Below, piece by piece: positions 5,516 through 26,150 of a stretch of DNA of 36,597 nt. The stretch covers positions 1 to 36,597 of the IMG/VR virus record IMGVR_UViG_3300033155_001917. The stretch is one strand, 5' to 3'. The DNA is from a virus. The position numbers were made by a program, and so were the translations under genes. Below the pieces are notes generated by a model that was not told where the DNA came from, made no database searches, and was given only the letters and a program-made list of their open reading frames with translations. Position 1 is the stretch's first letter; each line of letters starts with the position of its first letter.

Positions 5516-5891
5516 GAACATAGCGCTCAGTTTACCGTTCCCGCCGTCGATGAACCATTATCTGAAGACATCGACCAGACGCAACAAGCAGGGTCGGTCG
5601 GTCGTGCATAAGCGAATGAGTGATGCTGGCCGTGCATTCCAGCTTGAGATTCTAGCCGTTGCCTTTGGTAAGAAAATTACTGGCAGGGTAGCGGTTAAGG
5701 TCACGCTGTACCCACCTAACAGACAGAAGCGTGACATTGATAACTATACAAAAGTGTTGCTGGACGGCATTACAAAGGCGAGAGTATGGGAGGATGATGA
5801 GTGCGTCGACCTGCTGACTATTGCTCGCGGTCAGATATCACGACCGAATGGGTATTGCACTGTTGAGATTGTATCGCTGGAAGGGGATTAA
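5451..5891 (+). CDS. rusA: RusA-like Holliday junction resolvase
   Basis: 146 residues. The RusA core is clear: LPFPPSMNHY at about residue 28, a basic segment, VKVTLYPPNRQKRDIDNYTK with D95 and D97, K101, D105, and VWEDDECVD with D116, matching the catalytic Asp set of E. coli RusA (D70, D72, D91). RusA dimers resolve four-way junctions during phage recombination and before packaging. The N-terminus has an extra 25 residues overlapping the upstream gene, so the true start may be later. The 3' end meets the leftward operon by a 4-bp overlap. Confidence 0.88.
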   Translation: MVRKIRSRTKGAVIAASPRPIKNIALSLPFPPSMNHYLKTSTRRNKQGRSVVHKRMSDAGRAFQLEILAVAFGKKITGRVAVKVTLYPPNRQKRDIDNYTKVLLDGITKARVWEDDECVDLLTIARGQISRPNGYCTVEIVSLEGD

Positions 5892-6163
5892 TCGAGACTA
5901 GATGAGCTGCCGAGATTTATTAGCCCAACGTTATCGACTACCCGTACCTGCAACATCGGATACTTAAATGTGCTGCCCTCGATGATTACATCATCACCAA
6001 AATTCGTTAATAGCTCTCGCAGTTCACCGACAGTTTGAAATACAGGCATGTCGCGCTCCATTTTCCTGATAGCCTGCTTATTGCTTTTCGGTTTACGTTT
6101 GAAATACGGGCGTATCTTCTCGATCAGAAAGGTTGAAAGTACGGTAACAATGACCTCAATCAT
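5888..6163 (-). CDS. hypothetical protein with N-terminal hydrophobic segment
   Basis: 91 residues. The first 16 residues are hydrophobic (MIEVIVTVLSTFLIEK), then basic (KRKPKSNKQ), then a mixed domain ending in a Ser run. AGGAG sits upstream of the ATG. It is the last leftward gene and its stop overlaps that of rusA, with no terminator visible between the converging genes. Function unknown. Confidence 0.6.
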   Translation of the reverse strand: MIEVIVTVLSTFLIEKIRPYFKRKPKSNKQAIRKMERDMPVFQTVGELRELLTNFGDDVIIEGSTFKYPMLQVRVVDNVGLINLGSSSSLD

Positions 6164-6342
6164 AGCTTGAACTCCTTTGTTTTGACGATTTCTGTCAGGG
6201 CTGTTTTCAGGGCCGCCCCAATAAGGGCCTGTATTTTATCGCTCTCACACACGCTTAATTTATATTTACAGCGAGGCAGCATTTCTATCTGCTCAAGTAT
6301 TTTATTGATCTTGTTCTCGACTCGCTTTTTAGGCGTGTTCAT
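6160..6342 (-). CDS. hypothetical small basic protein
   Basis: 60 residues, helical and Lys-rich, with two single Cys (CKYKLSVCES). It overlaps the neighbours on both sides by ATGA-type junctions, so it is part of one translated unit. No motif identifies it. Confidence 0.55.
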   Translation of the reverse strand: MNTPKKRVENKINKILEQIEMLPRCKYKLSVCESDKIQALIGAALKTALTEIVKTKEFKL

Positions 6343-6731
6343 CAGTCCATCCGAGTAACAAAGTGACCGCCCTCGGGCAGTGGGATAGCGACTATCGAGC
6401 TTTGGTACTGGTAAAGGATGCCAAAGCCCTTGGTATCGACAGAGACTAGCGGGTAAAGAGCAGGGTCTTCCGCGAAGGCCGACAGGTATTTGCCGGTGCT
6501 CTCAATTTTTGAGCCAGTGAATTCAGACAGGCCGAAACCGTAACGCTGATCAAGAAAGTCTTTCAGGGTTGGCAGGTCGTCGCGCTTCGGGTCTTTTTTG
6601 TGGTAGCACCACTCTATAACCCACGTAGGAATGACCCCGCAAGCCTCTGCCACCCTTTCGACAGGGACGTTTTTAAAGTGACTGGTGGGGTCAATAGCGA
6701 CGTTGTACAGGTTTGATTTAATTTCTATCAT
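6342..6731 (-). CDS. hypothetical protein
   Basis: 129 residues with GAGGC upstream of the ATG. Residues 22-40 (VPVERVAEACGVIPTWVIEWC) resemble a helix-turn-helix, followed by a beta-rich half (YPLVSVDTKGFGILYQYQSSIVAIPLPEGGHFV). A DNA-binding role is possible but not shown. It lies directly downstream of the tRNA gene on the same strand. Confidence 0.55.
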   Translation of the reverse strand: MIEIKSNLYNVAIDPTSHFKNVPVERVAEACGVIPTWVIEWCYHKKDPKRDDLPTLKDFLDQRYGFGLSEFTGSKIESTGKYLSAFAEDPALYPLVSVDTKGFGILYQYQSSIVAIPLPEGGHFVTRMD

Positions 6732-6750
6732 TGGTTGCCTCGGTAAAAAT

Positions 6751-6827
6751 TGGCGTCGACAGTGGGATTCGAACCCGCGTTGCCACCGTGAAAGGGTGGA
6801 GTCCTGACCAGACTAGACGATGACGAC
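6751..6827 (-). tRNA. tRNA-Glu (anticodon UUC), CCA encoded
   Basis: Folded by eye on the minus strand: the acceptor 5' GTCGTCA pairs with TGTCGAC except for a T-T mismatch at 5:68; the anticodon stem CCACC/GGTGG closes loop CTTTCAC (TTC at 6792-6790); the T arm has loop TTCGAAT with one C-A mismatch at 50:64. The 3' end reads GCCA. The sequence closely parallels bacterial tRNA-Glu. The two stem mismatches may weaken it. Confidence 0.9.
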
Positions 6828-6846
6828 TGTAATTTTATTGCTCCGC

Positions 6847-7059
6847 TTAGTTTATAGACAGCAAGGCTTTAGTGCTTTGCAGGTCGTTGGGCTGGCGGTT
6901 GAGGTGCGACTTCAACCGTCTAATTTTATTCCTGATATGCCGATTCTCAGCGGTGTAGCGCTTGGCTGATGCGCTGTTGCGGCCATACTTGCGGTTTTTA
7001 TTGGTCTTCTGTGAAGACGTTTGTTTTGGCGCGCTCGGCGAGGTGGTTTGATCGTTCAT
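6847..7059 (-). CDS. small basic protein, unknown
   Basis: 70 residues with an unstructured Ser/Thr/Pro/Gln N-terminus and a strongly basic second half (RHIRNKIRRLKSHLNRQ). AGGATT lies upstream of the ATG. Basic peptides of this kind often bind nucleic acid, but no family is recognised. It precedes the tRNA on the leftward transcript. Confidence 0.55.
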   Translation of the reverse strand: MNDQTTSPSAPKQTSSQKTNKNRKYGRNSASAKRYTAENRHIRNKIRRLKSHLNRQPNDLQSTKALLSIN

Positions 7060-7068
7060 TTTATAATC

Positions 7069-7272
7069 CTATTTTTGAATCAGCGGAGGAACAGCCATTA
7101 GTTTTTTGGCTGCCGAGACGGTGGCACACAACCGGCTAAATACTGTTGCGCAGCTATTTGCCATGGGGTGTGTAATCCAGAACGACTTGCCGTCACGATG
7201 GGCGGTGTATCTTATTGTTTTGCCCAGCTTGTCGGGCTGTTTAAAGTCTCGGTGTTGTGATGCAAATCTCAT
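7069..7272 (-). CDS. hypothetical protein, start uncertain
   Basis: 67 residues from the ATG at 7272 (MRFASQHRDFK...GKTIRYTAHRDGKSFWITHP). The frame stays open for another 30 codons upstream with protein-like content, up to a TGA at 7365-7363, and just beyond that TGA an in-frame ATG lies at 7380-7378. The gene may be a shortened form of a longer protein, or may simply start at 7272. Function unknown. Confidence 0.5.
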   Translation of the reverse strand: MRFASQHRDFKQPDKLGKTIRYTAHRDGKSFWITHPMANSCATVFSRLCATVSAAKKLMAVPPLIQK

Positions 7273-7464
7273 TTCAGGCGATCCGCTTAATTTATTATTT
7301 AGCTCGTGATCGGCACGAGCACCGGTTTCTCTGGGTTTCTTACCAGCCTTTCTCGATAAAGGTCATGGGTCGCGCTCCATTCACTAATGAGCCGTTTATC
7401 GAGTCGGCGCTGGCGGCCAGATTTATTTCAGCGGAGTCTACCCCTCGCCTAGTTAAATGTAAAG
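7273..7464 (-). other. 190-bp gap without a supported gene
   Basis: Leftward frames here are open but have no start with a ribosome site. One reads protein-like to a TAA near 7339; another continues into the 7069-7272 gene. It may be decayed coding sequence or a leader. Confidence 0.35.
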
Positions 7465-7725
7465 CTAATCTTTAGGGTGAATAATTTGTTTTAACGTCTC
7501 GGGTGAATAGATATCAAGCATGGCTTTTAATTGTTCGGGTGTTCGGGTTGGGCATGGCTTCCGGCTGTTGAGCCAGCGGGACACTGTCATCCCTGACACC
7601 CCCAGCAGTCTTGCGGCGGATTGCCTTGAAATACCATAGTTAAGCAGTATTTTTTCGAATCTGGCTATTGTGGCGGCGTTTTGATCAAAACCGACTGCCT
7701 GAGATGTCCTGTGCCGAACGTTCAT
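7465..7725 (-). CDS. small HTH transcriptional regulator (Cro/CI-like)
   Basis: 86 residues. Residues about 18-55 form a helix-turn-helix: an ILLNYGISRQSAARLLGVS scaffold helix and turn, then MTVSRWLNSRK as recognition helix. This is typical of Xre/Cro family DNA-binding proteins. The short C-terminal tail has no ligand domain, so it is likely a simple dimeric repressor or activator. It sits alone behind a terminator, so it probably has its own promoter. The operators are unknown; the dyads at 1802 and 12412 are candidates only. Confidence 0.75.
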   Translation of the reverse strand: MNVRHRTSQAVGFDQNAATIARFEKILLNYGISRQSAARLLGVSGMTVSRWLNSRKPCPTRTPEQLKAMLDIYSPETLKQIIHPKD

Positions 7726-7750
7726 GGGTAAAGCATACCTTTATATAGGG

Positions 7751-7777
7751 TCAAAAAGAAGGGCGCGAGAAGCGCCC
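7751..7777 (-). terminator. intrinsic terminator of the peptidase operon
   Basis: On the minus strand GGGCGC-TTCTC-GCGCCC (7777-7761) is followed by TTCTTTTTGA. The position is 30 bp after the peptidase stop and upstream of the HTH gene. Confidence 0.8.
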
Positions 7778-7806
7778 ATAAAAGGGGAGGTACTGCGAAG
7801 AATAAA

Positions 7807-8841
7807 CTATTGGCCGTTGTATTGTTCTATAAAGTCAGCATCAATACCCCAGTCAAACAGGATGGAGGCGATTAGCTCGGGCGGGTTGTTCTCTATCGCC
7901 TCAACCAGCAATTCCCACTTGCTGCCGACGGGCATGCAAGAGGCCATATCACTATCAAGCATGAAGTCGTCATCAGTGGCAGGCCATTGGATTTCTGTTG
8001 CTCTGCCTTGCGTCGCTGCCGAACTATTTTGATAGTGGGTGCTGTATCGTTTACTGCGTCTTGTGTGTCCATGGTAACCACCACTCACGATACCGCCGCT
8101 GTACCAGTCTAGCGGGTATATATCTACGGTTGGCTCGCGCTGCACGGGGAGCGTCTTCCAGTCGAGGGCTATCAGCTTATCCCTTAGTTCAAGCACAAAG
8201 TCTACGCGCTGCGATTCTTTGGCTGTGTGCTGGTGCTCATAGCCGACAGACAGGTTGGTGCATTCTGATATCAAGTGAGTATAGTTGGCGGTATCGGTGA
8301 ACGTGCCGCGTGCTCGCCGCCACTTCTTACCAAGTCGTCGACCCAGCTCTTTAGCAAAGCGGTCAGAGCAGCATACGCCCATCTGATCACCCACCACGTC
8401 ACCGGTTCCCATTCTATCGAATGCAACAGCGTGGTCGATGTTGGTCAGAACCTCGGGTGTCGTCATTGCAATATAGGTAGAGCCGCCGCCGCCGCATTCC
8501 TCCTCGCGGTGAAATATGTACAGGCCTTCAACCTTGGCCTCAATCATTGCCAGCATTAACCAGTTACCGGTGGTGTCATCGGCCCCTAAGCAGTCGTGAC
8601 CCTTCGACGTTATAACGTCCTTTTTCTTGTCATACTTAAGCTTTTGCTTGCCGCCTGAAACATGAACCGTGTCTGTATGCGAGGAAAACAGGGTGCGGGG
8701 GCTGTCCCCAATGGTTAAGATATAATTATGAAAGCCATCGGGTTTAGCACCGCAAGGAACAATAAACCGGTCGATATATTCCAACTCTGTCCGGCTTCCC
8801 GCTGGTCGCTTGTACTTCAACATTTTAAGTAGCTGGTTCAT
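7807..8841 (-). CDS. M20/M28-like zinc metallopeptidase
   Basis: 344 residues with the co-catalytic zinc peptidase layout: H55-x-D57 in SSHTDTVH, bridging Asp in LGADDTTG (D88/D89), the catalytic Glu pair in HREEECGGGGS (E113-E115), a metal-binding Asp in VAFDRMGTGDVV (D142) and a terminal His in GYEHQHTAKE (H203 or H205). All metal ligands seem present, so it is likely active on a peptide or an acylated amino acid. The substrate cannot be read. It overlaps the upstream 563-aa gene by ATGA and so is co-translated with it. Residues after about 215 are a non-conserved extension. Confidence 0.8.
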   Translation of the reverse strand: MNQLLKMLKYKRPAGSRTELEYIDRFIVPCGAKPDGFHNYILTIGDSPRTLFSSHTDTVHVSGGKQKLKYDKKKDVITSKGHDCLGADDTTGNWLMLAMIEAKVEGLYIFHREEECGGGGSTYIAMTTPEVLTNIDHAVAFDRMGTGDVVGDQMGVCCSDRFAKELGRRLGKKWRRARGTFTDTANYTHLISECTNLSVGYEHQHTAKESQRVDFVLELRDKLIALDWKTLPVQREPTVDIYPLDWYSGGIVSGGYHGHTRRSKRYSTHYQNSSAATQGRATEIQWPATDDDFMLDSDMASCMPVGSKWELLVEAIENNPPELIASILFDWGIDADFIEQYNGQ

Positions 8842-10529
8842 AGTGTTAATTCTCGCTCAAAGTGTTCAGAAACCAGAACCGCAACATTGGTTGACGGCTT
8901 GCGGTCGAACCGAAAGCTTTTTGTGAACATGTCAGGCCCGTGAAGGGTGATGTATGAGGCATTCGCTGCCAATCCAGCAGAGGCCTGCACTAACGACTCG
9001 GGGGCGGGGTTGTTCATAAAGAGCTGATCGTATGACAGCCAGTTGTCGTTATATCGACGAAACCCTAAGCCAATTAGGCTATGCCTTAAGGGGTTGTTTA
9101 ATGACGGCCTCAAGCCAGTTTTAAAGAACATTACTTTAAGCTGAGTTACTGGGATATTAGCCAGATCATATTTACCAAATACCTGACCCTGTACTATGCC
9201 GTCTTTTATCCACTCCTTGAGATAGGTCACCCCATTGACTACTGTAACGTCATCCACCAGTGCCGACACTCCGCCAGAGGTGGTGGCGCAATCATTAAAG
9301 TGCTCGATCTTATTATCGTAAGTTTTGACCGCCTTGGAATGGTGGATTAGCTCCCCCTTGCTGCTTGTTATTAAATTTGGATGGCCATTAAATAGCCACG
9401 TTTGCTCTCTGGAGCTAAAAACGCTATCCGCTTCGATCATTACTATCCCGTCTATTGAGCAGGTAACGCACGCCTCATCATAGCAGCGGCGGCAAGCTAT
9501 CTTATCGCCTGTTCCGCTGTAAATCGAAAGGTTGTCTTCCTCATTCCACTCCTTACAAACTACGCATTGACAGGAATTGTCATGCCTTGCCAGTCCGCCC
9601 GTGTCATAGGCAGCTTGAGCGCCGCCACAAAGCACGCCTTTGCTTTCGTCACCGATCCACAGTGATTCCCCGTCGTCATACAGGTTGTCGGCGTCACCAT
9701 CAATGTAGGGGGCTATAAAGGTTGCCCTAAATGGAAGGCGGCGCAGGCGCATGCCGTAACCAATCGTACTGTCCTGTCTATAGCCCATATTTGTCAGGGT
9801 TTCGCGCAGTACGTCGGCGTCATGATGGTTGTCATAATAAAGGCCGTACCACTTGCCATTCTGGGTTACCATTGAGCGCGCGGTGCATTCCCCGTCTGGG
9901 TCGTCGTCGGAAGTGGTGTAGGCAAGAGACCAGTCATCAGGGTGATAGGCCGCACAGGGATGAACGGGATTGCTTTGGAAGTTGTCGGCGCTTTTCCCCA
10001 TGCAAGAGGAAGGCACGCCGCTGTCATAGATTGAGGCGATGGTGTTAACATTGTTGGTGATAAAGACGCGGTGACCCTCGCCATTACCTTTGTTGACCAT
10101 ATTGTAAACCTCAGCGATGGCTTTAATTTTGTGCGGGTCTCTGATCCCCAGCGGCCCCCTTAAGTAGCGGCCCAGCTTCATAGTGGTCTGTATGTCGCGC
10201 CCGCCTTTCTCCGGCGATGATGTGAAGGCCACCAATTTGCCACAGGATGATGAGTGGGCATAGTGAAGACTCAGCGCGAGTTCAACTTGATCAGCAGACA
10301 GCTCGTCACGCATGCGGATGATTAGCGCCTCTGGCAGAGCCTTGTAGATCCCCGTCTGAATTCTGGCCGCCTCTCTAAAGCGCCACGAGCTGGTGGGCAT
10401 TTGGTCGTAGGCTTCATAAACCTGAGATGGCTTACTAGCCAGCGCGGTACCGGCCTGATCCAGCCCGACTATAAAGCTTGTTTGCCAGCCGGTTGCATTC
10501 CTAACGTATTCTGATAATGATTTGTTCAT
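8838..10529 (-). CDS. large conserved-looking phage protein with Cys-rich centre, unknown
   Basis: 563 residues from the ATG at 10529, preceded by GGGAGA; the frame is open to a GTG at 10706 that would give 622. The middle has SCMGK...HPCAAY and ARSMV...WYGLYY, a pattern I have seen in uncharacterised phage proteins, then a Cys cluster (CQCVVC...CRRC...CVTC) that looks like a zinc site of six or more Cys. No enzyme motif is visible. Its immediate coupling to the metallopeptidase suggests a joint role, for example substrate or regulator of that peptidase; this is an inference. Confidence 0.7.
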   Translation of the reverse strand: MNKSLSEYVRNATGWQTSFIVGLDQAGTALASKPSQVYEAYDQMPTSSWRFREAARIQTGIYKALPEALIIRMRDELSADQVELALSLHYAHSSSCGKLVAFTSSPEKGGRDIQTTMKLGRYLRGPLGIRDPHKIKAIAEVYNMVNKGNGEGHRVFITNNVNTIASIYDSGVPSSCMGKSADNFQSNPVHPCAAYHPDDWSLAYTTSDDDPDGECTARSMVTQNGKWYGLYYDNHHDADVLRETLTNMGYRQDSTIGYGMRLRRLPFRATFIAPYIDGDADNLYDDGESLWIGDESKGVLCGGAQAAYDTGGLARHDNSCQCVVCKEWNEEDNLSIYSGTGDKIACRRCYDEACVTCSIDGIVMIEADSVFSSREQTWLFNGHPNLITSSKGELIHHSKAVKTYDNKIEHFNDCATTSGGVSALVDDVTVVNGVTYLKEWIKDGIVQGQVFGKYDLANIPVTQLKVMFFKTGLRPSLNNPLRHSLIGLGFRRYNDNWLSYDQLFMNNPAPESLVQASAGLAANASYITLHGPDMFTKSFRFDRKPSTNVAVLVSEHFERELTL

Positions 10530-10534
10530 CGTGG

Positions 10535-10624
10535 TTATCTCCCAATTAAATAAATAACGAAATTGATCAGCAGCACTAAGGTTAATATTAATATTGTGAT
10601 GTCTGGTCGGTTGTGGTGCTTCAT
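10535..10624 (-). CDS. tiny single-pass membrane peptide
   Basis: 29 residues, starting at an ATG with GAGGG 5 bp upstream. A polar N-terminus (MKHHNRPD) is followed by an unbroken hydrophobic stretch of about 18 residues (ITILILTLVLLINFVIYL) and GR. Its stop overlaps the ribosome site of the 563-aa gene, so the two may be coupled. It lies in a different frame from the possible N-terminal extension of that gene, and only one of the two readings may be real. Confidence 0.5.
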   Translation of the reverse strand: MKHHNRPDITILILTLVLLINFVIYLIGR

Positions 10625-10702
10625 AATTACCCTCTATGTTGTTGCACCAGATAGCGCCGCGAAAGGCGCTAACGGTTGCATTGACCGGTTGGTCGGTTGG
10701 TT

Positions 10703-10984
10703 TCACTTGCTGCTTTCATCCTTTCTGGTTGTTATATAGATGGAGCATCCGCGATCCTTCATCACCCTCCTGCATTGCCATAAAGCCCAGCGGCAGCGCA
10801 GTCTCAACCAGCGCATTGCAAGGTAATGTTTAACTGATTGTGCTATAATAACCGGACTCATAAACAGCAGTATTCCCGCGACAGATAGGCAGAAAATGGC
10901 GGTGAATGCGCGTCTCTCTCCGACGGTATCAAAGGGGTTGTGGCTATCGTGAAACAGTTTCATCTCATCAATAAAGGCTTTCAT
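10703..10984 (-). CDS. small membrane protein with basic tail
   Basis: 93 residues from the ATG at 10984. Residues about 25-48 are hydrophobic (FTAIFCLSVAGILLFMSPVII), followed by a strongly basic segment (RWLRLRCRW...CRRVMKDR). An N-out or N-in single-pass membrane topology is likely. The start overlaps the stop of the gene upstream, and its own stop overlaps a GTG (GTGA) at 10706. Function unknown. Confidence 0.55.
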   Translation of the reverse strand: MKAFIDEMKLFHDSHNPFDTVGERRAFTAIFCLSVAGILLFMSPVIIAQSVKHYLAMRWLRLRCRWALWQCRRVMKDRGCSIYITTRKDESSK

Positions 10985-11175
10985 AGTGACAGGTTTCCGC
11001 TCTTGCGAGTCTTCAGTGCGTGACCGACAGCCACTTGCAGTGCTCTGGTGCGCGGCGTGGGTCGATGCCCGTCCAGTATTCTCTCGATTTGAACCAACAG
11101 GACACATACATTGGCGGCCCAGACATCTTGATCGGTTGGTAGTGGTTGGGTGATGACTGGCTCAACTCTATTCAT
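10981..11175 (-). CDS. hypothetical small protein
   Basis: 64 residues from the ATG at 11175, which has GGGGG about 6 bp upstream; the open frame extends to 11328 but overlaps the previous gene. It contains a helix DVWAANVCVLLVQIERILDG and a basic C-terminus. It overlaps both neighbours, typical of this leftward operon. No family recognised. Confidence 0.5.
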   Translation of the reverse strand: MNRVEPVITQPLPTDQDVWAANVCVLLVQIERILDGHRPTPRTRALQVAVGHALKTRKSGNLSL

Positions 11176-11428
11176 GACTGCCCCCACTGAGGTGATGTTC
11201 AAGCGCGGCGGCCCCAAAGGCGAGGCTGGTATCGTCATTAGTGGGCCTGTCTTCAATAGTGATGTCATGCTTGTCGGCGTACTTTTGCGCGGCGGTTCTC
11301 GACTTAAAGCCGCCTTGAACTTCAGCAAACAGCAGGTTAATCCTAACGATAGACCAGCGCCCAGCCATTGGCATAATCACAACCCGACCGGCGTCGGAGC
11401 TGACAGCTTGTTGAATAGCTTCAATCAT
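11168..11428 (-). CDS. hypothetical protein
   Basis: 86 residues. The middle looks like a small alpha-beta domain (VVIMPMAGRWSIVRINLLFAEVQGGFKSRTAAQKYADKH). The aromatic-to-AAQKYAD helix pattern resembles short SPOR-like or DUF2188-like folds, but the match is too weak to name. It overlaps upstream and downstream genes by 4-8 bp. Confidence 0.55.
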   Translation of the reverse strand: MIEAIQQAVSSDAGRVVIMPMAGRWSIVRINLLFAEVQGGFKSRTAAQKYADKHDITIEDRPTNDDTSLAFGAAALEHHLSGGSHE

Positions 11429-11718
11429 GGCTTGATCCTCATCTTGAACGCGGGTTTAACCATGGGCGGTAGACAGTCTGCACAGTGCGGACGGCCTCCC
11501 CAGTGTTTGACCGACTTCTTATTGCAGTCAGTACAGGCGCAGGTCTCATTCATGAATGGCGGGAACGTCGGTGCGTCTCGCGGGTGGTTAAAGCATTGTC
11601 GTGGTGTAATTTCAATGGCGGGGATATGAGTGGCGGCGATGCCATCAACGGTGTATCCAGCATCAACCCAGTGTGCGGCCGTCAGGGTGCGGCCTTTCAT
11701 TGTAATATTCTTATTCAT
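11425..11718 (-). CDS. small zinc-binding protein
   Basis: 97 residues from the ATG at 11718; the open frame to 11832 lies inside the next gene. The C-terminal half holds CFNH...CACTDCNKKSVKHWGGRPHCADC, with two C-x2-C pairs plus His and Cys, consistent with a zinc ribbon. N-terminal residues 8-20 (LTAAHWVDAGYTVDG) look globular. Function unknown. Confidence 0.6.
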   Translation of the reverse strand: MNKNITMKGRTLTAAHWVDAGYTVDGIAATHIPAIEITPRQCFNHPRDAPTFPPFMNETCACTDCNKKSVKHWGGRPHCADCLPPMVKPAFKMRIKP

Positions 11719-12004
11719 GTTCGGCCTCGTAGTCTTCAAGTAGTGCTTGCAGTGCTCCCAGCGGTGACCAAGGATATAGATATTGCGGCCCGTCCTTTGG
11801 GTGAAGTATCTTAATAGCAATGATATTGTCATGCGGTGCGATATGGGATGGAGCGATAGTGGTAACCGGCCAGCGGGTAAAGAGCCTGCTAATCATGTTG
11901 GTAATGCTTGGCTGGAATGATGACAGGTGAGCCGGTGGTGTAAGTTTAGGAATAGGTAGTGACCGGTTGTCGTCGTGTTGATAGCGTGATGTATGGTTGT
12001 TCAT
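11711..12004 (-). CDS. hypothetical protein
   Basis: 97 residues, starting at an ATG with GAGGG 8 bp upstream. The N-terminus is polar and Pro-rich (PIPKLTPPAHLS); the C-terminal half has TTIAPSHIAPHDNIIAIKILHPKDGPQYLYPWS followed by an acidic helix. Its stop overlaps the next gene by 8 bp. No family recognised. Confidence 0.5.
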   Translation of the reverse strand: MNNHTSRYQHDDNRSLPIPKLTPPAHLSSFQPSITNMISRLFTRWPVTTIAPSHIAPHDNIIAIKILHPKDGPQYLYPWSPLGALQALLEDYEAEHE

Positions 12005-12101
12005 TTGCTTAACCCTCTTTGTAGTGGTGGTGCGGCGGCGGCCACTCTTATATAACAAGCCAGAATAGCGCGCCGTAAGTCAGTACAGGATAGTGTCCTC
12101 A

Positions 12102-12248
12102 TTACATTACCTTATTATAAGTAAGTAATACGCCTGCTATGAAACCCATCGGGAAGGCTATTATTGCCAGCAGTAGTTCAGTGTAGAGCCGGTGGGAACG
12201 GTCGTAAATACCATCAGTTGTTAAGTACGTCTCTGGATATAATCTCAT
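12102..12248 (-). CDS. small membrane protein
   Basis: 48 residues, starting at an ATG with GGGGAAG just upstream. A polar N-terminal 27 residues precede one hydrophobic segment (LLLAIIAFPMGFIAGVLL) and a short YNKVM tail. It overlaps the end of the 12214-12408 gene in another frame. Ribosome site, clean membrane segment and position all favour a real gene. Function unknown. Confidence 0.6.
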   Translation of the reverse strand: MRLYPETYLTTDGIYDRSHRLYTELLLAIIAFPMGFIAGVLLTYNKVM

Positions 12249-12408
12249 TAGTCTTCCCCGTGTTGTTTGTGACAAGCCAGCAATCGTGTAACGTGACCGT
12301 GATGAGCAGTTTAAGTGTTCCTCGTGGTGAGCCAGAATTAGCCCAGTGTTGAGGTGTCATACGCGCACGACTGCCGACTTCTTCAAAGAATAGACCATAA
12401 ACTCTCAC
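12214..12408 (-). CDS. first gene of the leftward operon, hypothetical
   Basis: 64 residues from a GTG at 12408 or 48 from the ATG at 12360; neither has a strong ribosome site, so the start is open. The C-terminal part (GTLKLLITVTLHDCWLVTNNTGKTNEI) looks like a small beta-rich domain. It is the gene nearest the strand switch, behind the 12412-12426 palindrome. Confidence 0.4.
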   Translation of the reverse strand: MRVYGLFFEEVGSRARMTPQHWANSGSPRGTLKLLITVTLHDCWLVTNNTGKTNEIISRDVLNN

Positions 12409-12411
12409 TTG

Positions 12412-12426
12412 TAAAGCCAGGCTTTA
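12412..12426. promoter_or_regulatory. operator-like palindrome
   Basis: TAAAGCC-A-GGCTTTA, a perfect 7-bp dyad, lies 4 bp upstream of the first leftward gene and next to TATA-like sequence (TATAGT on the minus strand). The placement fits a repressor site over a leftward promoter. Confidence 0.45.
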
Positions 12427-12746
12427 TACTATAAGTAGCGAAATGAGGCTATATATGGCTATGCTATGGCCTTGCTGCCTACCTGATCGTCGCGTAGACG
12501 GCCACACAGAGAGGCGATATCAGACCCAACCAGCATAAACCCAGTGTTCCGCCAGTCCGACAGCCGACAGGCCTGCCAGCATCCAACAACGCGGGGCGGA
12601 TGGAACCAACGACCAAACAGAAAGCCAATCCGACAATCTAAAAGCCGACCCCCACAACCCGAAATCAGCCAGCGGAAGGCGGGGGGTCTATATACCTCCC
12701 CGACACGCACACTTTCTCGTTCACAATTTTTTTCTGCTTTTGGGAC

Positions 12747-12833
12747 GGCAGGGGCAACGGCAGGGGTTTGGCAGGGGTTTGGCAGGGGTTTGGCAGGGGT
12801 TTGGCAGGGGTTTGGCAGGGGTAACGGCAGGGG
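12747..12833 (+). repeat. array of eight GGCAGGGG units, 11-12 bp period
   Basis: Units start at 12747, 12759, 12770, 12781, 12792, 12803, 12814 and 12826. The five central units are exact TTTGGCAGGGG copies; the edge units carry AAC in place of TTT. The spacing is close to one helical turn, and each unit has a run of four G separated by 7-8 bases, so both protein-bound iterons and G-quadruplex folding are possible. Confidence 0.9.
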
Positions 12834-12966
12834 TAAAAGTATCGTTATGTAATACTTTCTGCTGGATGGGTGACAAATTTTACGGGGGTTATACCGACAG
12901 GATGACCATTTGGTATCGTATTATGCTACTTTCGGCGTTTTTATAATGTGTGGCTTTATAGATTGC

Positions 12967-12994
12967 TTGATTTATATTAGCAGAGGCTTATACT
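12967..12994 (+). promoter_or_regulatory. sigma70-like promoter for the rightward operon
   Basis: TTGATT (12967-12972), 16-bp spacer, TATACT (12989-12994), 28 bp before the first rightward gene at 13022. Confidence 0.45.
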
Positions 12995-13021
12995 CGGAAT
13001 TATTGATTGATGGAGAAGAAG

Positions 13022-13204
13022 ATGTCTTTATGTAGTGAGTGTAGATTTTTTCGATCTGGTTCTGACGCTAGTCATGGGACATGTCGAAGATATCCGCCGA
13101 TTAGCCGGTTAGCCCCTGAAGGGCCTGAGAAGTGGCTTGAGGGTTTTTTGCGGGTTGATCCGCATCAGGAGTCGTGTGGTGAATTTAAGGGAGGAGGAAG
13201 TTAA
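13022..13204 (+). CDS. small Cys-rich phage protein
   Basis: 60 residues, starting at an ATG behind GGAGAAGA. It has CSECRFF near the N-terminus, GTCRRYPP in the middle and SCGEFKGG at the end: a C-x2-C...C...C zinc site common in short uncharacterised phage and bacterial proteins. It is the first rightward gene after the control region. Function unknown. Confidence 0.7.
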   Translation: MSLCSECRFFRSGSDASHGTCRRYPPISRLAPEGPEKWLEGFLRVDPHQESCGEFKGGGS

Positions 13205-13213
13205 GGGTGATGT

Positions 13214-13402
13214 ATGAACAAAGCAGAAGCATTGGCGGAAGCGGGTCGGATGCTGGACGAAAATCCAGTTCCGCAAACTGACCGCATTCTTTTACATGAT
13301 GGGCGCATGATTGCGTATCGCCCGTCGCGGGAAACTATTGCTTCACTCCAGCGGCAGAACCAGAAGTATGATATCGTGATGAAGCGATTGGCTAACGGGT
13401 AA
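13214..13402 (+). CDS. hypothetical small protein
   Basis: 62 residues, mostly helical, with a short beta hairpin in the middle (TDRILLHDGRMIAYRPS). It follows the Cys-rich gene by 9 bp and precedes the next gene by 5 bp, so it is co-transcribed. No family recognised. Confidence 0.6.
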   Translation: MNKAEALAEAGRMLDENPVPQTDRILLHDGRMIAYRPSRETIASLQRQNQKYDIVMKRLANG

Positions 13403-13407
13403 AAATA

Positions 13408-13713
13408 GTGAGCGGAACAACGACCGATAGATTTAATCTCGATCTGGGATACGGTGTGGATACAGAAGTGTCGCCGCAGAACAGAAACTATTTGGTGCTG
13501 AGTGAAGCTGAGCGAGCGAAAGGATTTGTCCGGCCGGTGCGGTCAAGGTATGTGCATGACGTCTGTGGAAAAGCGACATTAATGGGGCGGGCCTTAAGCG
13601 AGACCTATGCGCGCGACCCTAAATTTTACGGGGCTACTTATTGCGTTGGTTGCCATAAGCATCGACCGGTGAGTGAATTCAAATGGGATGACGGCGAAGT
13701 TGTCGGCTCCTGA
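13408..13713 (+). CDS. conserved-looking phage zinc protein, GTG start
   Basis: 101 residues from a GTG. The second half has RYVHDVCGKATLM, a YARDPKFYGATYC strand and CVGCHKHRPVSEFKW, a pattern I have seen in short phage proteins of unknown role; the two Cys pairs and His suggest one zinc site. It ends in DDGEVVGS. Function unknown. Confidence 0.65.
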   Translation: MSGTTTDRFNLDLGYGVDTEVSPQNRNYLVLSEAERAKGFVRPVRSRYVHDVCGKATLMGRALSETYARDPKFYGATYCVGCHKHRPVSEFKWDDGEVVGS

Positions 13714-13733
13714 TTCCACCCAATATTAAAAAG

Positions 13734-14060
13734 GTGAAAAGTGTGAAAAAAATTTTTTATATTCTGCTACTGTTACCACTGACGGTCTCCGCCGGACATT
13801 GGCATGAATCGAATCCTGTTGTTAATTCTCTTTCTAGTGATTGTAGAGCTGGTGCTATGGCTTTAGCTGGTGGCATGCACAGTTTTTCTCTGAACACCAA
13901 AGCCCTGCAAGGCTCTGTCGCTGGAGCGACGATTGGTGGGTGTGACGCTTTATCAGGCGCTGTTGCGATGGTGATTAATGAACGAATTTTACTTCAGGGT
14001 TCGATGTGTGTGTCTGCTGGTGATAGTTGTTTTGGTTTTTCTGCTGGAATGCGATTCTAA
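13734..14060 (+). CDS. exported YadA-anchor-like mini protein
   Basis: 108 residues. A signal peptide is clear: K-K, a hydrophobic core (FYILLLLPLT), then a VSA-G cleavage site at about residue 20. The mature part resembles the C-terminal membrane anchor of trimeric autotransporters (YadA): AMALAGGMHSF, alternating Gly-rich strands (GSVAGATIGG, FGFSAGMRF) and a terminal Phe. Four Cys residues could form disulfides. If correct, it would sit in the host outer membrane as a small trimeric barrel. A superinfection or surface role is inference. The next gene follows by TAATG. Confidence 0.55.
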   Translation: MKSVKKIFYILLLLPLTVSAGHWHESNPVVNSLSSDCRAGAMALAGGMHSFSLNTKALQGSVAGATIGGCDALSGAVAMVINERILLQGSMCVSAGDSCFGFSAGMRF

Positions 14061-14269
14061 TGAAAGAAAAGTGGATTAAGGTTTACCAGATATCGATACC
14101 GATTATTCTGCTCCTGCTGAGCGGCTCTGTCGGTTATAACCAGTATACTAAAACCGGTGTCCTGCAACACGACCACCCAGTCAGTGAAGCCATTATTCAA
14201 CGCATTATCGCGATTGATGCCGAGTTGCGGGAAATCAACCGACTACAGAATACTTGGCACGGTCAATAG
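14060..14269 (+). CDS. small single-pass membrane protein
   Basis: 69 residues from the ATG overlapping the previous stop. A basic N-terminus (KEKWIKVYQ) precedes a hydrophobic segment (ISIPIILLLLSGSVGY), then a polar helical tail facing the periplasm. The topology resembles an inner-membrane spanin or a small accessory membrane protein, but the tail is short for a spanin and it is not beside a recognised endolysin. Its pairing with the exported upstream protein is notable. Confidence 0.6.
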   Translation: MKEKWIKVYQISIPIILLLLSGSVGYNQYTKTGVLQHDHPVSEAIIQRIIAIDAELREINRLQNTWHGQ

Positions 14270-14270
14270 G

Positions 14271-14298
14271 TTGTAAACAAACGCCGTATAGATATACT
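14271..14298 (+). promoter_or_regulatory. sigma70-like promoter
   Basis: TTGTAA (14271-14276), 16-bp spacer, TATACT (14293-14298), just after the stop at 14269. A CTGGC/GCCAG hairpin follows at 14307-14321, ahead of the small gene at 14343. It shares spacer length and -10 box with the promoter at 12967. Confidence 0.45.
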
Positions 14299-14342
14299 CT
14301 GATCATCTGGCATCCCGCCAGTGACTACACAAGGTGATCCCC

Positions 14343-14465
14343 ATGAAGGACAGCAAATCTTCAGGTAATAAAAAAATTGGTACTCCAACCAAACCCGTGC
14401 TTGCCACTCCTGTTTCGACCAAAGGCGGAAAAAGCCCGAAGTCAGTTACTAAATACAAGTGCTAA
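14343..14465 (+). CDS. tiny basic protein
   Basis: 40 residues with AAGGTG upstream of the ATG. Lys, Ser, Thr and Pro make up most of it (KDSKSSGNKKIGTPTKP...), ending KYKC. It is likely disordered. Such Lys-rich peptides may bind DNA or sit in the virion, but nothing identifies it. Confidence 0.55.
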   Translation: MKDSKSSGNKKIGTPTKPVLATPVSTKGGKSPKSVTKYKC

Positions 14466-14578
14466 GCAAGAAGCAACAGAAAACGACTCAGAAAATTAAC
14501 AAGGCTCGAAAGGCTGACGCAAAAGAACGCCGACGAGCCTTTGTTGAGCGGGAGAGCAAGAATGAAAGCAAAAAGTAA
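14459..14578 (+). CDS. tiny Lys/Arg-rich helical protein, GTG start
   Basis: 39 residues from a GTG overlapping the previous gene. It is highly charged (KKQQKTTQKINKARKADAKE...RRRAF) and probably one long helix. The start has little Shine-Dalgarno, so translation may depend on coupling. A similar basic mini-gene lies at 21276-21392. Confidence 0.4.
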   Translation: MLSKKQQKTTQKINKARKADAKERRRAFVERESKNESKK

Positions 14579-14720
14579 AAAGTCTGTTGGATTTCTCGAC
14601 GACCCCGTTAACTGGATCAAGAAAAAGGCGTCCGATTTTATCGACGAGGGATCAGCATTGGATAAGCTGAAAAATCGGAAAAAATATCAAGACGAGGCTC
14701 TCAAGCAGGCGGATCAGTAA
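14562..14720 (+). CDS. small amphipathic protein
   Basis: 52 residues with GGGAG upstream of the ATG. After a basic start comes FLDDPVNWIKKKASDFIDEG, an amphipathic helix, then a charged tail. It overlaps the neighbours on each side (TAATG at the 3' end). Function unknown. Confidence 0.6.
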   Translation: MKAKSKKSVGFLDDPVNWIKKKASDFIDEGSALDKLKNRKKYQDEALKQADQ

Positions 14721-14902
14721 TGGCGACCGGCAACCTACCACCAGCACCAGCCCATAAAGGCAAAATGCACAAACCCAAAAACATTAAGGCTATCGGCCAG
14801 TCCCGCAAGCGCGGATATCTGCGAATGCGACTGAGAACCGACGACTCGAATAAGGTTAATATGTCCGACCGGAAACTCGGCTCTGGCATTTCCAGCGAGT
14901 AA
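14720..14902 (+). CDS. small basic protein
   Basis: 60 residues, Lys/Arg-rich and probably disordered at the N-terminus (PPAPAHKGKMHKPKN), with RGYLRMRLRTDD and SDRKLGSGISSE after it. Overlaps both neighbours by one base (TAATG). No family recognised. Confidence 0.55.
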   Translation: MATGNLPPAPAHKGKMHKPKNIKAIGQSRKRGYLRMRLRTDDSNKVNMSDRKLGSGISSE

Positions 14903-15294
14903 TGAATGCGTTTCTGATCCGCACCAGTAAGACGAAAACACATACTCGCGGAATACTGGTTGTCGAAGGAGAGCTTTTTGCCACACTGGAACCACCATGG
15001 CTGTTCAATCGCCGAAACTGTTCCAGTATTCCTGCGGGAACCTATCAGTGCCACTTCTTGTCACGCTCGAATAGTGGACGATATCGGAATATTTATCATG
15101 TGCGAGATGTCGAACGGCGAAGCGGCATTCTTATTCATAATGGGAATATTGTACGACATACCCTCGGGTGTATTCTGATAGGCCTTAAACAAGGCAAATT
15201 AAATGGCAAGCCCGCTGTGCTGAACAGTAAATCAGCCCTGCGAAAGCTGCTACGAATAACCAAACGAAAAGAGCTGAAACTGGTAGTAGTATGA
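14902..15294 (+). CDS. DUF5675 family protein
   Basis: 130 residues. The DUF5675 pattern is present: an N-terminal RGILVVEGELFATLEPPW strand pair, IPAGTY, a basic strand region, and GILIHNGNIVRHTLGCILIG, where HNGN...TLGC recalls the catalytic His and Cys of YkuD-type L,D-transpeptidases. The family is common in phages near lysis or packaging genes; activity is not established. Here it precedes the holin-like gene, so a cell-wall role is worth considering. Confidence 0.7.
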   Translation: MNAFLIRTSKTKTHTRGILVVEGELFATLEPPWLFNRRNCSSIPAGTYQCHFLSRSNSGRYRNIYHVRDVERRSGILIHNGNIVRHTLGCILIGLKQGKLNGKPAVLNSKSALRKLLRITKRKELKLVVV

Positions 15295-15575
15295 GCAATA
15301 TAGTTAAAATGTCAGACTACAGTCCTCACATGGAAGGCCCTGCCAAATGCCTAGTGTGTAAACACGAGTGGCATGCCGTTGCCCCGCTCGGAACAGTCGC
15401 CCTTGATTGCCCTGAATGCCATACATCAAAAGGGGTTTTTGTTTACATGGTCGTTCCTGAAATTTGCTTTCAGTGTCGTTGCGGGGAATACCTGTTTCAC
15501 TTACACCCGAACGGTGCGCAATGCTGCAATTGCGGAATAGCCCATACCTTAGCGGAGCTTTACGAAAATGATTAG
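15291..15575 (+). CDS. zinc-ribbon protein
   Basis: 94 residues with at least three metal-type motifs: CLVCKHEW, CPECH, and CRCG...CCNCG. It is beta-rich and compact, with no catalytic motif. It overlaps DUF5675 upstream and the holin-like gene downstream by a few bases. Such proteins are frequent in late phage operons, with unknown partners. Confidence 0.65.
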   Translation: MSNIVKMSDYSPHMEGPAKCLVCKHEWHAVAPLGTVALDCPECHTSKGVFVYMVVPEICFQCRCGEYLFHLHPNGAQCCNCGIAHTLAELYEND

Positions 15576-16086
15576 TTCAATATTATCAATAATGACTTCC
15601 GGCGGTTTTGGTGCCGTCACAGGCCTGATCGGCGGATACCTGACCAAGGTAGAAAACCGCAAAATGAAGGCTCTCGATCACGCGCATGAGCAGTCCATGG
15701 GCGAACTCAGCATCAGGGAACTCACCCTCGAGCACACGCAAGCCCTCGAGCTGAAAGATAAGGAAGCCATGCTGGCCGAGGTCGAAGGCGATATTATCGT
15801 TGAAGGCAAAGAAGCGGACGCTTTTGTCGAGTCCATCAAAGGACAGGGCAAGGCTACCGGAATCGGGTTTGTTGATGCTATTCGCGGCCTGATGCGTCCA
15901 TTGATTACTGTCTTTTTACTCTGGGTTGTCTGGCAAATCTACGCCGATGTGGATGCTCTGGTTGGCGGGCTTGAAGCCATGCCGATGATCGCGCTGGCCG
16001 CTCTTTATGCAGAAATTGTCTCCTCAATTATCTTTCTGACTACCACCGCTGTTGCATGGTGGTTTGCCAGCCGAGGCGCGAAGTGA
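15568..16086 (+). CDS. holin-like membrane protein (3-TM holin type)
   Basis: 172 residues. A Gly-rich hydrophobic N-terminus (residues 3-26) is followed by a long charged helix (27-95), GFVDAIRGLMRPLITVFLLWVVWQIY (99-125) and a final membrane segment MIALAALYAEIVSSIIFLTTTAVAWW (140-165). The FxDAxRGLxRP motif and topology match phage holins of the three-membrane-segment type, which set lysis timing by permeabilising the inner membrane. No endolysin is recognisable nearby. It overlaps terS. Confidence 0.65.
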   Translation: MISSILSIMTSGGFGAVTGLIGGYLTKVENRKMKALDHAHEQSMGELSIRELTLEHTQALELKDKEAMLAEVEGDIIVEGKEADAFVESIKGQGKATGIGFVDAIRGLMRPLITVFLLWVVWQIYADVDALVGGLEAMPMIALAALYAEIVSSIIFLTTTAVAWWFASRGAK

Positions 16087-16616
16087 CAGAACTCTCCATC
16101 ATAAAAACCAGCGGACTCGCTCCAGATAGACATAATTTCTGTCATTTTCTGGCGGCTGACCCCCAGATGAACGGGGTGACGGCCTACCTGAAGATCAAGC
16201 CTGAAGCGAAACACGCTACCGCTGCGAACATGGCAAACCGCTGGATTAAAGAGCCAGAGGTGCGCCTGTATGTTGGCGTTCTGCTTGAGGCCCGTCAAAA
16301 GCGACTGGAAATGGACGAGGATTGGGTTATTCACCGCTTGCGGGAAATTTGTGACCGGTGTATGCAGGCCGTCCCATATTTTGGAGCAGGCAATGTGGTT
16401 ACTGTTGATGATGACGGAGAGGTCATCCCGAGAGAGCCGCTTTACTACAAGTTTGACTCAACCGGCGCTATCAAATCTCTGGAGCTGATTGGTAAGCATA
16501 TGCGCATGTTCTCTGACAAGGTTGATATAGCCCAGATGAACGTGGTTATGAATATGAATTTTGGCGGCGAAAGACCCGCAATTGAAGGAGAATTCAAGCG
16601 TGTCGGTAAATCTTAA
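16083..16616 (+). CDS. terS: terminase small subunit
   Basis: 177 residues from the GTG overlapping the previous TGA (GAGGCG upstream). An N-terminal HTH-type segment (GVTAYLKIKPEAKHATAANMA...KEPEVRLYV) is typical of Terminase_2 small subunits, followed by MDEDWVIHRLREICDRCM and a helical oligomerisation region. The protein binds the packaging site and recruits the large subunit, which is encoded next and overlaps by 17 bp. Confidence 0.8.
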   Translation: MTELSIIKTSGLAPDRHNFCHFLAADPQMNGVTAYLKIKPEAKHATAANMANRWIKEPEVRLYVGVLLEARQKRLEMDEDWVIHRLREICDRCMQAVPYFGAGNVVTVDDDGEVIPREPLYYKFDSTGAIKSLELIGKHMRMFSDKVDIAQMNVVMNMNFGGERPAIEGEFKRVGKS

Positions 16617-18051
16617 ATATGTCGCAGAACGTACTGTTGCCAGATTCCACGCCTCCGTTAAATTTGTTCGAGGCATTATGGGGCCGATTGGCTCCGGCAA
16701 GTCGGTTGGATGCACACTTGAAATGTTTGCGAAAGCAGTTGAGCAAGAGGCTTACTTTGCCGACGAAACCTCGAAAGGCATCCGAAAAACACGATGGGCG
16801 GCCATCAGAAACACCTACCCCGAATTAAAATCCACCACCATTAAAACCTTCGAAGACTGGTTCCCGTCAGAAATCTGCTCGATCAACTGGTCTCCGCCCA
16901 TCACAGCGCTGCTAAAACTACCCTTGCCCGACGGCACGATAGTTGAGATGGAAGTCTTGTTCATGGCCCTAGACAAGCCCAATGATGTAAAAAAGTTACT
17001 TTCTCTCGAACTAACCGGAGTATGGCTTAATGAGGTACGTGAAATCCCAAAACAGATTTTGGATGGCGCTACAGGACGCGTGGGAAGATATCCGGCAAAG
17101 CGGCATGGTGGGCCAACATGGTCTGGTATTATCATGGACACAAATCCCCCAGACGATGACCACTGGTATTACACACTCGCGGAGGAACTTAAGCCGGAAG
17201 GGTTCGATTTCTTCCATCAGCCCCCCGCTCTTATTGAGCTGGCCGACAACACATATGTCCCCAACCCCGAAGCAGAGAACGTTATTAATCAGCCCCTCGG
17301 TTATGATTATTGGCTGAGACAGGTCTTCGGTAAAGACAAGGACTGGATCAATGTTTACGTTCTGGGCCTGTACGGATCGATTTTCGAGGGTAAGCCGGTT
17401 TATTCCGAATATAATGACGCGGTTCATTGTTCTGAAACCGAGCTTGAGGTTTATCGAGGCCTTCCAGTCTTTCTGGGGTGGGATTACGGCCTTACCCCTG
17501 CCTGCATTGCTGTACAGCTTTCTCCGCACGGCCAACTGCGCGTTTTGCGCGAATGGTGTACCGAAGACATGGCTATCCGTGAATTTGCGCAGGATGTGGT
17601 CAAACCCGCCCTTGCCAACGAATTCAACGACGTGATAATCATCTCAGTAGGTGACCCCGCTGGTAGTCACAGGGGCGAAACCGAGAAGAAGTCCTGTATG
17701 GATATTTTGCTTGAAGAGCAGATTCCGACCGAGGAAGCACCGACCAATGAGCCGATTGCCCGAACCGACTCGGTAAGATTTTATCTAAAAGGGATGGATA
17801 GAGAAGGAAATCCTTCGTTTTTAATGTCACCATCCTGCAAAATCCTGAGACGAGGTTTCAACGGCGGTTACAAATATGACCGCGTACAAATCGTCGGGGA
17901 AGAGCGTTACAAAGACGAGGCCTGTAAAAACAAGTTCTCGCATCCGCATGACGGGTTGCAATATGCCTGTAGCAAGTTAAGGTATGGCACTAAGATGGTC
18001 AAGGCGCAACCAAAACGAATTCGCCAACGAACAGCCGCAGGATGGACTTAA
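16600..18051 (+). CDS. terL: terminase large subunit
   Basis: 483 residues from a GTG with GAAGGAG 9 bp upstream. Walker A is GPIGSGKS (28-35); the Walker B-like segment is LTGVWLNEVRE; the RNase H-like nuclease domain has FLGWDYGLTP, VGDPAGSHRGE and FSHPHDGLQYA with the expected acidic residues. It powers DNA packaging into the prohead and cuts concatemers. Position between terS and portal is standard. Confidence 0.93.
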   Translation: MSVNLKYVAERTVARFHASVKFVRGIMGPIGSGKSVGCTLEMFAKAVEQEAYFADETSKGIRKTRWAAIRNTYPELKSTTIKTFEDWFPSEICSINWSPPITALLKLPLPDGTIVEMEVLFMALDKPNDVKKLLSLELTGVWLNEVREIPKQILDGATGRVGRYPAKRHGGPTWSGIIMDTNPPDDDHWYYTLAEELKPEGFDFFHQPPALIELADNTYVPNPEAENVINQPLGYDYWLRQVFGKDKDWINVYVLGLYGSIFEGKPVYSEYNDAVHCSETELEVYRGLPVFLGWDYGLTPACIAVQLSPHGQLRVLREWCTEDMAIREFAQDVVKPALANEFNDVIIISVGDPAGSHRGETEKKSCMDILLEEQIPTEEAPTNEPIARTDSVRFYLKGMDREGNPSFLMSPSCKILRRGFNGGYKYDRVQIVGEERYKDEACKNKFSHPHDGLQYACSKLRYGTKMVKAQPKRIRQRTAAGWT

Positions 18052-18329
18052 TGAGTAAAACCGAAATCAACGTTCAGCCAATAATTGATGGCATCAAGTC
18101 GAACTGCAACGGCATTCTCAAGGTTGTTGCGCTGAAAGGCAAAAACAAGAAGGTGGGCCACTTTCTGTTGATGCTTTTTACCGATGACAAATTCAGAATC
18201 AATATCGACATAGACGTCGCTGAAATGCTGCAAAACAAACATTACATGGATAATCTTTTTAAAAATATAGCCGAAGCAATGGAATACTCCCGTAAAGCGA
18301 GGTATGAAGCATGTCGTATGGGCTTTTAA
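18051..18329 (+). CDS. hypothetical protein between terminase and portal
   Basis: 92 residues from the ATG overlapping the terL stop (TAATG). The N-terminal half is a small alpha-beta fold (ILKVVALKGKNKKVGHFLLMLFTDDKF), the C-terminal half helical and basic. It overlaps the portal gene by 19 bp, so is co-translated. No family recognised. Confidence 0.6.
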   Translation: MSKTEINVQPIIDGIKSNCNGILKVVALKGKNKKVGHFLLMLFTDDKFRINIDIDVAEMLQNKHYMDNLFKNIAEAMEYSRKARYEACRMGF

Positions 18330-20713: not shown

Positions 20714-20717
20714 AATA

Positions 20718-20933
20718 ATGGCTTGGCGTGAACTGTTACATGTACGAAAAATTCTACCGAAAACTGGAGAACCGGCACCGCTTCAAGTGCCTACATTTAC
20801 CTTGGCGACTGTGCCTGCTGCTGCGGCTTGGCCTCGGCACTTAATCTGGATCAGTGATGCGACACCGGCCTGTCTTGCGATTAGCAATGGCACCGCATGG
20901 ATCGCGACTGATGACGGTACTGCGGCTGCCTAA
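20718..20933 (+). CDS. small virion-type protein
   Basis: 71 residues. The pattern FTLATVPAAAAWPRHLIWISDATPACLAISNGTAWIATDDG is a short beta motif often found in phage tail or fibre proteins (a LP...vyvsD...DGtxW theme). It starts 4 bp after the portal stop. Probably a minor structural protein or a detached fibre module. Confidence 0.6.
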   Translation: MAWRELLHVRKILPKTGEPAPLQVPTFTLATVPAAAAWPRHLIWISDATPACLAISNGTAWIATDDGTAAA

Positions 20934-20935
20934 TT

Positions 20936-21283
20936 GTGGGCAGCGAAGATCGCAACCCAGAGGCACCACGGAGTGGCTCGCACTGGCATTTAGATAAGCG
21001 GGTGCCACTGACACTAATTCTGTCGGTGGCCGCTATTCTGGGGCATCAGATTTATCAAAACGCTAAATTCGAGACAAAGTTCGAGGGTATGGCTAAGGAC
21101 ATCACTCATCTAACCTCTGACCGAATACACAAGCAAACCGTGGTCGAGATGTTTCGTTCTCGAGACCTTGAGACCAGTATTTTACGGGGCAGTATTAACG
21201 AGGTTCATGCCGAGCTTCGAGAGCTGAGTTCTCTGATGCGAGAGGCTATTGTTATTAAGGCAATCGAGCGGCGAAATGAGTAG
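20936..21283 (+). CDS. single-pass membrane protein with coiled coil, GTG start
   Basis: 115 residues from a GTG. A polar N-terminus is followed by one hydrophobic segment (VPLTLILSVAAILGHQIY) and a charged helical domain (FEGMAKDITHLTSD...EVHAELRELSSLMRE). This resembles an inner-membrane spanin or similar late-gene membrane protein, but no outer-membrane partner is visible. Function uncertain. Confidence 0.55.
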   Translation: MGSEDRNPEAPRSGSHWHLDKRVPLTLILSVAAILGHQIYQNAKFETKFEGMAKDITHLTSDRIHKQTVVEMFRSRDLETSILRGSINEVHAELRELSSLMREAIVIKAIERRNE

Positions 21284-21392
21284 AAAGAAAAAGCAGAAAA
21301 AAACGTCGTCTCGACAACGACTTTATGAGCGCGCCAAAAGGCGTGAAGAACAATCTTTGAAAGAGGGTAAGAAAAATGCCACAAGCGAATGA
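21276..21392 (+). CDS. tiny basic protein
   Basis: 38 residues, Lys/Arg-rich (MSRKKKQKKTSSRQRLYERAKRRE), with GAGCGG ahead of the ATG. It overlaps the gene before and after it by 8 and 17 bp. Probably disordered and nucleic-acid binding or virion-associated; nothing more can be said. Confidence 0.5.
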   Translation: MSRKKKQKKTSSRQRLYERAKRREEQSLKEGKKNATSE

Positions 21393-26147: not shown

Positions 26148-26150
26148 ATC

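Follow-up and report, generated by a model that had tools for sequence, protein, structure and literature searches.

An eight-unit tandem array beside a conserved non-coding element at the divergent junction of an uncultured tailed phage

What role, if any, is played by a tight array of G-rich repeats lying between the two oppositely transcribed arms of a phage genome? The array studied here belongs to an IMG/VR virus record of 36,597 bases from an uncultured tailed phage (the window, meaning the whole stretch analyzed). Both ends of the window fall inside coding sequence, so the record is probably a fragment. A first-pass annotation had described eight units with a period of 11-12 bp and AAC-marked edges at the switch between divergent arms, and had suggested cooperative protein binding, an origin or master switch, and G-quadruplex formation. 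The question is which of these suggestions the locus and its relatives bear out.

The description of the array itself proved correct. All eight units are exact copies of GGCAGGGG arranged head-to-tail, with starts at 12747, 12759, 12770, 12781, 12792, 12803, 12814 and 12826 and a final base at 12833, giving spacings of 12,11,11,11,11,11,12 bp. The linkers CAAC on the left and TAAC on the right flank five TTT linkers and account for the marked edges. The whole window contains nine copies of GGCAGGGG against an expectation of 1.09 +/- 0.96, and only one of them lies outside the array. Among 200 dinucleotide-shuffled versions of the window, none had an 8-mer more than three times within ~90 bp, compared with the eight copies observed, and the array is the top tandem repeat of the window (TRF score 129-148). 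This confirms that the eight-unit array is real and beyond chance, with tandem copies in the excess that characterizes minisatellites and VNTRs.

The array is placed in a 950-bp gap between the leftward genes, which start at about 12058, and the rightward genes (Table 1). Its position between divergent arms was thus rightly annotated, and most relatives have the same type of junction. A/T tracts like AATTTTTTT follow element A in many relatives, not all. Sites of the form TTGNNN-16-TATAAT, resembling the predicted rightward promoter, are present in the relatives L076, L078, L080, L083 and L085, and in many loci a predicted rightward promoter lies further downstream of element A. Counted on both strands of six loci (251 kb), the GGGGTTATACC pattern of element B occurs twice, once in the window and once in L076, each time downstream of element A.

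Table 1. Features of the divergent junction and neighboring genes in the window
Feature	Position	Strand	Remarks
Leftward arm	5888..12058	-	HTH regulator 7465-7725, peptidase-like and unknown genes
Element A, conserved non-coding element CCGACCCC...GGCGGGGGGTCTATATACC..CCCGACACGCAC	12639..12725	+	Immediately left of array
A/T tract AATTTTTTT	12725..12733	+	Between element A and array
Tandem array, 8 x GGCAGGGG	12747..12833	+	Linkers CAAC, TTT, TTT, TTT, TTT, TTT, TAAC
Element B, GGGTGACAAATTTTACGGGGGTTATACC	12868..12895	+	Operator-like; similar GGGGTTATACC at matching place in L076
Predicted sigma-70 promoter, TTGATT-16-TATACT	12967..12994	+	Rightward arm
Small rightward genes	13007..16086	+	Between array and terminase genes in this lineage
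Small terminase subunit (TerS)	16056..16616	+	Terminase_2, PF03592; profile relative of TerS 3zqp
Large terminase subunit (TerL)	16561..18051	+	PBSX-type by TIGR01547, below cut-off

The nearest relative, L008 (IMGVR_UViG_3300033144_005768), matches window positions 10741-27621 at 99.8% identity (16.9 kb) and carries a second allele of the array. Outside the array the two contigs show 10 differences in ~16.8 kb, a rate at which ~0.05 would be expected per 88 bp; inside it, 22 alignment columns differ. The L008 array consists of seven units, one of them GGCATGGG, joined by the linkers TTT, TTT, TAAC, TAAC, TAAC, TAAC and spaced by 11,11,12,12,12,12 bp. The block order TTT to TAAC is kept in both alleles and the block sizes change from 5+1 in the window to 2+4 in L008, a picture suggestive of slippage or unequal recombination. 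In this single comparison, copy number and composition vary between near-identical genomes, as they do in VNTRs. Of the 15 units in the two alleles, 14 keep the GGCAGGGG core unchanged while the linkers differ, and by a rough count four of the five changes fall in linkers (P ~0.045), a weak hint that the core may be constrained.

A scan with the large terminase recovered 217 relatives, of which 80 were kept. Besides L008, the 13 loci L076-L088 share 72-76% terminase identity with the window in the best segment, and those with a sequenced junction have no GGCAGGGG array. When the 300 bp downstream of element A were compared in 38 loci, clear tandem repetition was found only in the window, in L008 and in L125, where an unrelated 11-bp repeat, AACCCAGTGGG, directly follows the element; an array beside element A is thus not a retained feature of these 38 loci. 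Across IMG/VR a loose version of the array pattern matched 69 stretches, and a pure 11-bp step was confined to L006/L008, which are the same phage, and to L007, whose match is an unrelated high-GC repeat. Searching cultured-phage DNA with the region or with element A gave no real match. A host-derived repeat was also considered and rejected: a loose genome scan returned more than 100 matches, almost exclusively 32-nt stretches with a 12-bp step in high-GC genomes, which showed no evident link to the window phage.

Neither the copy number nor the phase of the array, which the first-pass annotation had proposed to compare in related phages, is conserved. Seven units and mostly 12-bp steps are found at 99.8% identity, and at 72-76% terminase identity the array is missing. 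The shift from a mostly 11-bp to a mostly 12-bp step leaves cooperative binding in strict helical phase unsupported, and absence from relatives together with slippage-type copy-number variation are the very findings that the first-pass annotation had named as telling against its proposal.

Our best explanation, to which we give about even credence, is that the array is a lineage-specific minisatellite generated by slippage in a permissive spacer adjoining a conserved control element, with no strict role that depends on its sequence or phase. A short G-rich unit would have been duplicated, and its copies would then have been repeatedly expanded, contracted and homogenized through replication slippage or unequal recombination. 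The non-coding spacer between element A and the rightward promoter would tolerate such changes of length, and any function of the array would be at most auxiliary, as a loosely specific binding or wrapping segment. This reading draws on the concentration of differences inside the array, on its absence after element A in relatives that keep both the element and the terminase genes (L125 excepted), on the restriction of pure 11-bp arrays in IMG/VR to this phage and the unrelated L007, and on the fact that GGCAGGGG lacks the scatter across the window expected of an operator. The array, its variability and its location are observed directly, as is the conservation of element A, whereas slippage as the mechanism, the lack of a strict function and the role of element A are inferred. 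Against it stand the bias of changes toward the linkers, the availability of only two alleles, both probably from short-read assemblies, and the unrelated 11-bp array that L125 has at the corresponding place, which could mean that arrays are useful here. The array resembles minisatellites and VNTRs in its head-to-tail copies, its blocks of two unit types and its change of copy number between near-identical genomes, and differs from typical ones in lying in a phage intergenic region and in being known from two alleles.

Element A, in contrast to the array, is common to relatives of the window phage. It comprises CCGACCCC, followed by a G run, a CTATA-like stretch and CACACGCAC. A profile seeded with 21 loci, including the cultured Vibrio phage VA-RY-3 and Cronobacter phage Ss1, matched 16 further non-seed loci, some of them weakly (E up to 0.5). 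All matches have the same orientation and lie upstream of TerL, and at most loci the left gene runs leftward and the right gene rightward. In VA-RY-3 and Ss1 the A-like element is flanked by divergent genes and closely precedes the TerS gene; it was recognized only once these genomes had been fetched by terminase similarity, and its scores are marginal even though both are seeds (E 0.05 and 0.6). No contig end falls exactly at element A, and the assemblies of some relatives are circular. A conserved element near the terminase genes and oriented with them is what a pac or cos site calls for, and element A has these properties. Element A probably marks where packaging is initiated or serves the divergent junction as a control site of another kind, and it deserves more attention than the array. 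A looser A pattern near unrelated terminases was not used as evidence, as it has the opposite orientation and is partly expected by chance; GGGGGG..CTATA..CACGC-like intergenic elements of this kind occur near unrelated terminase-like genes in L301, L303, L310 and L312.

The conservation of element A brings in the main rival to the minisatellite reading, an auxiliary role of the array in terminase binding. Element A would be the cleavage or recognition core of a pac or cos site, the A/T tract would bend the DNA, and the small terminase ring would dock on the array and wrap it before the large subunit cuts; the repeats could drift rapidly because recognition would rely on shape and multivalency. 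The invariant orientation of element A upstream of TerL agrees with such a model, as do its adjacency to TerS in several relatives, VA-RY-3 and Ss1 among them, and the 11-bp array immediately after it in L125. The small terminase matches PF03592 (Terminase_2) above the curated cut-off, and a profile built from seven relatives matches 3zqp (E=7e-5), a terminase small subunit that we take to be the SF6 protein. The small terminase thus appears to belong to the SPP1/SF6 family. The AlphaFold prediction for TerS was of low confidence (mean pLDDT 67), and a Foldseek search with it gave nothing useful.

The pac sites of SPP1 and SF6 have direct repeats close to the terminase promoter, and these are poorly conserved between relatives (PMC4737164). 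The SPP1 site spans the TerS promoters and contains boxA repeats that SF6 lacks; SF6 has another pair (PMC4737164). A related packaging system thus offers a precedent for a conserved core beside drifting repeats and, since repeats are poorly retained even there, the missing array in relatives is compatible with a pac site. The window shares with these systems the small-terminase family, direct repeats near the promoter of a terminase operon, and poor conservation of the repeats. It differs in that element A and the array lie 3.3 kb from TerS, and in that element A is followed by no tandem array in most of the relatives that carry it; moreover, the DNA-binding domain of SF6 TerS shows little preference for the repeats (PMC4737164). 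In lambda, cosN lies beside the cosB sites, where IHF induces a bend in the DNA (PMC2366019), and the order of core, A/T tract and repeats in the window resembles cosN followed by the bent cosB R sites (PMC2366019). Eight tight tandem units, however, contrast with three spaced R sites, and TerL is PBSX-like. On balance we regard a terminase-binding array as a tentative alternative and a rather unlikely one.

A broader version, which we find more doubtful still, would make element A an undescribed packaging motif of a large, mostly uncultured podovirus-like family, in which each lineage attaches its own fast-evolving repeats that coevolve with TerS (GGCAGGGG here, AACCCAGTGGG in L125). Arrays recur around the junction region, and neither their sequence nor their place persists. 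If element A marks the start of packaging, genome ends and packaging direction can be read from a simple sequence signature in a family sampled almost entirely through metagenomics, with the array as an illustration of how fast repeat slippage can rebuild the DNA beside such a site. If element A acts merely as a switch, the array still separates strains sharply, the two 99.8% identical contigs differing mainly there.

The proposal that origins often sit at such a place can be stated as an iteron replication origin bound by the replication protein encoded at 2377-2982. As in iteron-type origins, direct repeats follow one another in an intergenic region with a period close to a helical turn. Cumulative GC skew, however, rises almost monotonically through the site on this incomplete contig and has no minimum at the array, which likewise goes against the proposal by the skew comparison that the first-pass annotation had set, the number and spacing of the units are not conserved, relatives have no array, and the replication gene is ~10 kb away. 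An origin at the array is thus very improbable. A search for an alternative origin in repeats near the replication gene found nothing convincing.

The array precedes the predicted rightward promoter by 130-220 bp, and most relatives too have divergent genes at this junction. Such a location would also suit an operator array for divergent promoters, at which a regulator such as the HTH protein of the leftward arm would bind and set the balance between early and late transcription. The units, however, are not palindromic and occur at no other promoter in the window, they are absent from relatives that keep an HTH homologue, and their phase shifts between the two alleles. We consider such an operator unlikely.

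The suggested G-quadruplex potential on one strand was borne out by sequence-based prediction. The array is the only region of the window with |G4Hunter| of at least 1.5 (mean 1.71), its + strand fits the G3+N1-7 quadruplex pattern, and RNA folding with G-quadruplexes allowed yields two of them at -39.7 kcal/mol. The GGGG tracts of the + strand might accordingly fold and stall a polymerase or modulate transcription. At 7-8 nt the loops are nevertheless long for a quadruplex to be stable, the pattern matches once in L008 compared with several times in the window, and the spacers of the close relatives tested contain none. A quadruplex element as the function of the array is in our view quite improbable, more so than an operator.

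The array could finally be part of a small protein, read through by a + strand ORF of 102 codons (12544-12852). This frame is open in both alleles, and the 9-bp length change in L008 preserves it. It runs across element A, however, whose conservation is at the DNA level; in relatives the element is not covered by an ORF on any consistent strand, and the 11-bp step causes successive units to be read differently. Such a protein is the least credible of the alternatives. A search for known RNA families found none, the best match being noise. The FtsK-orienting KOPS motif (GGGNAGGG) was also rejected, with two exact matches in the window and none in the array.

Repeats of other kinds were seen in the relatives. 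In the distant relatives L114 (7808-7999), L119 (9064-9311), L121 (1015-1105) and L144 (4058-4220), arrays with units of 14-17 bp, often palindromic (for example ACGGTTATCCGTAGT), lie upstream of the terminase genes and closer to the small terminase gene. L085 has three copies of CAGGGTAAAC around element A, at about 4818, 5084 and 5143, which are loosely like the CAGGGGTAAC form of the window unit. L129 starts with a long poly-G run (6-78) that is probably a sequencing artefact.

Two observations concern the surrounding genes. Homologues of window genes 14902-15294 and 15568-16086 are found downstream of the terminase/portal region in L080, L082 and L088; in the window they sit between the array and the terminase genes, which suggests that a small module has moved. 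Near the left end of the window, positions 76-906 encode an adenylosuccinate synthetase-like protein whose best PHROG is phrog_1211 (2-aminooxy adenylosuccinate synthetase) and whose match to the PurZ model is marginal (15 bits, cut-off 300), so that a genome containing 2-aminoadenine is possible.
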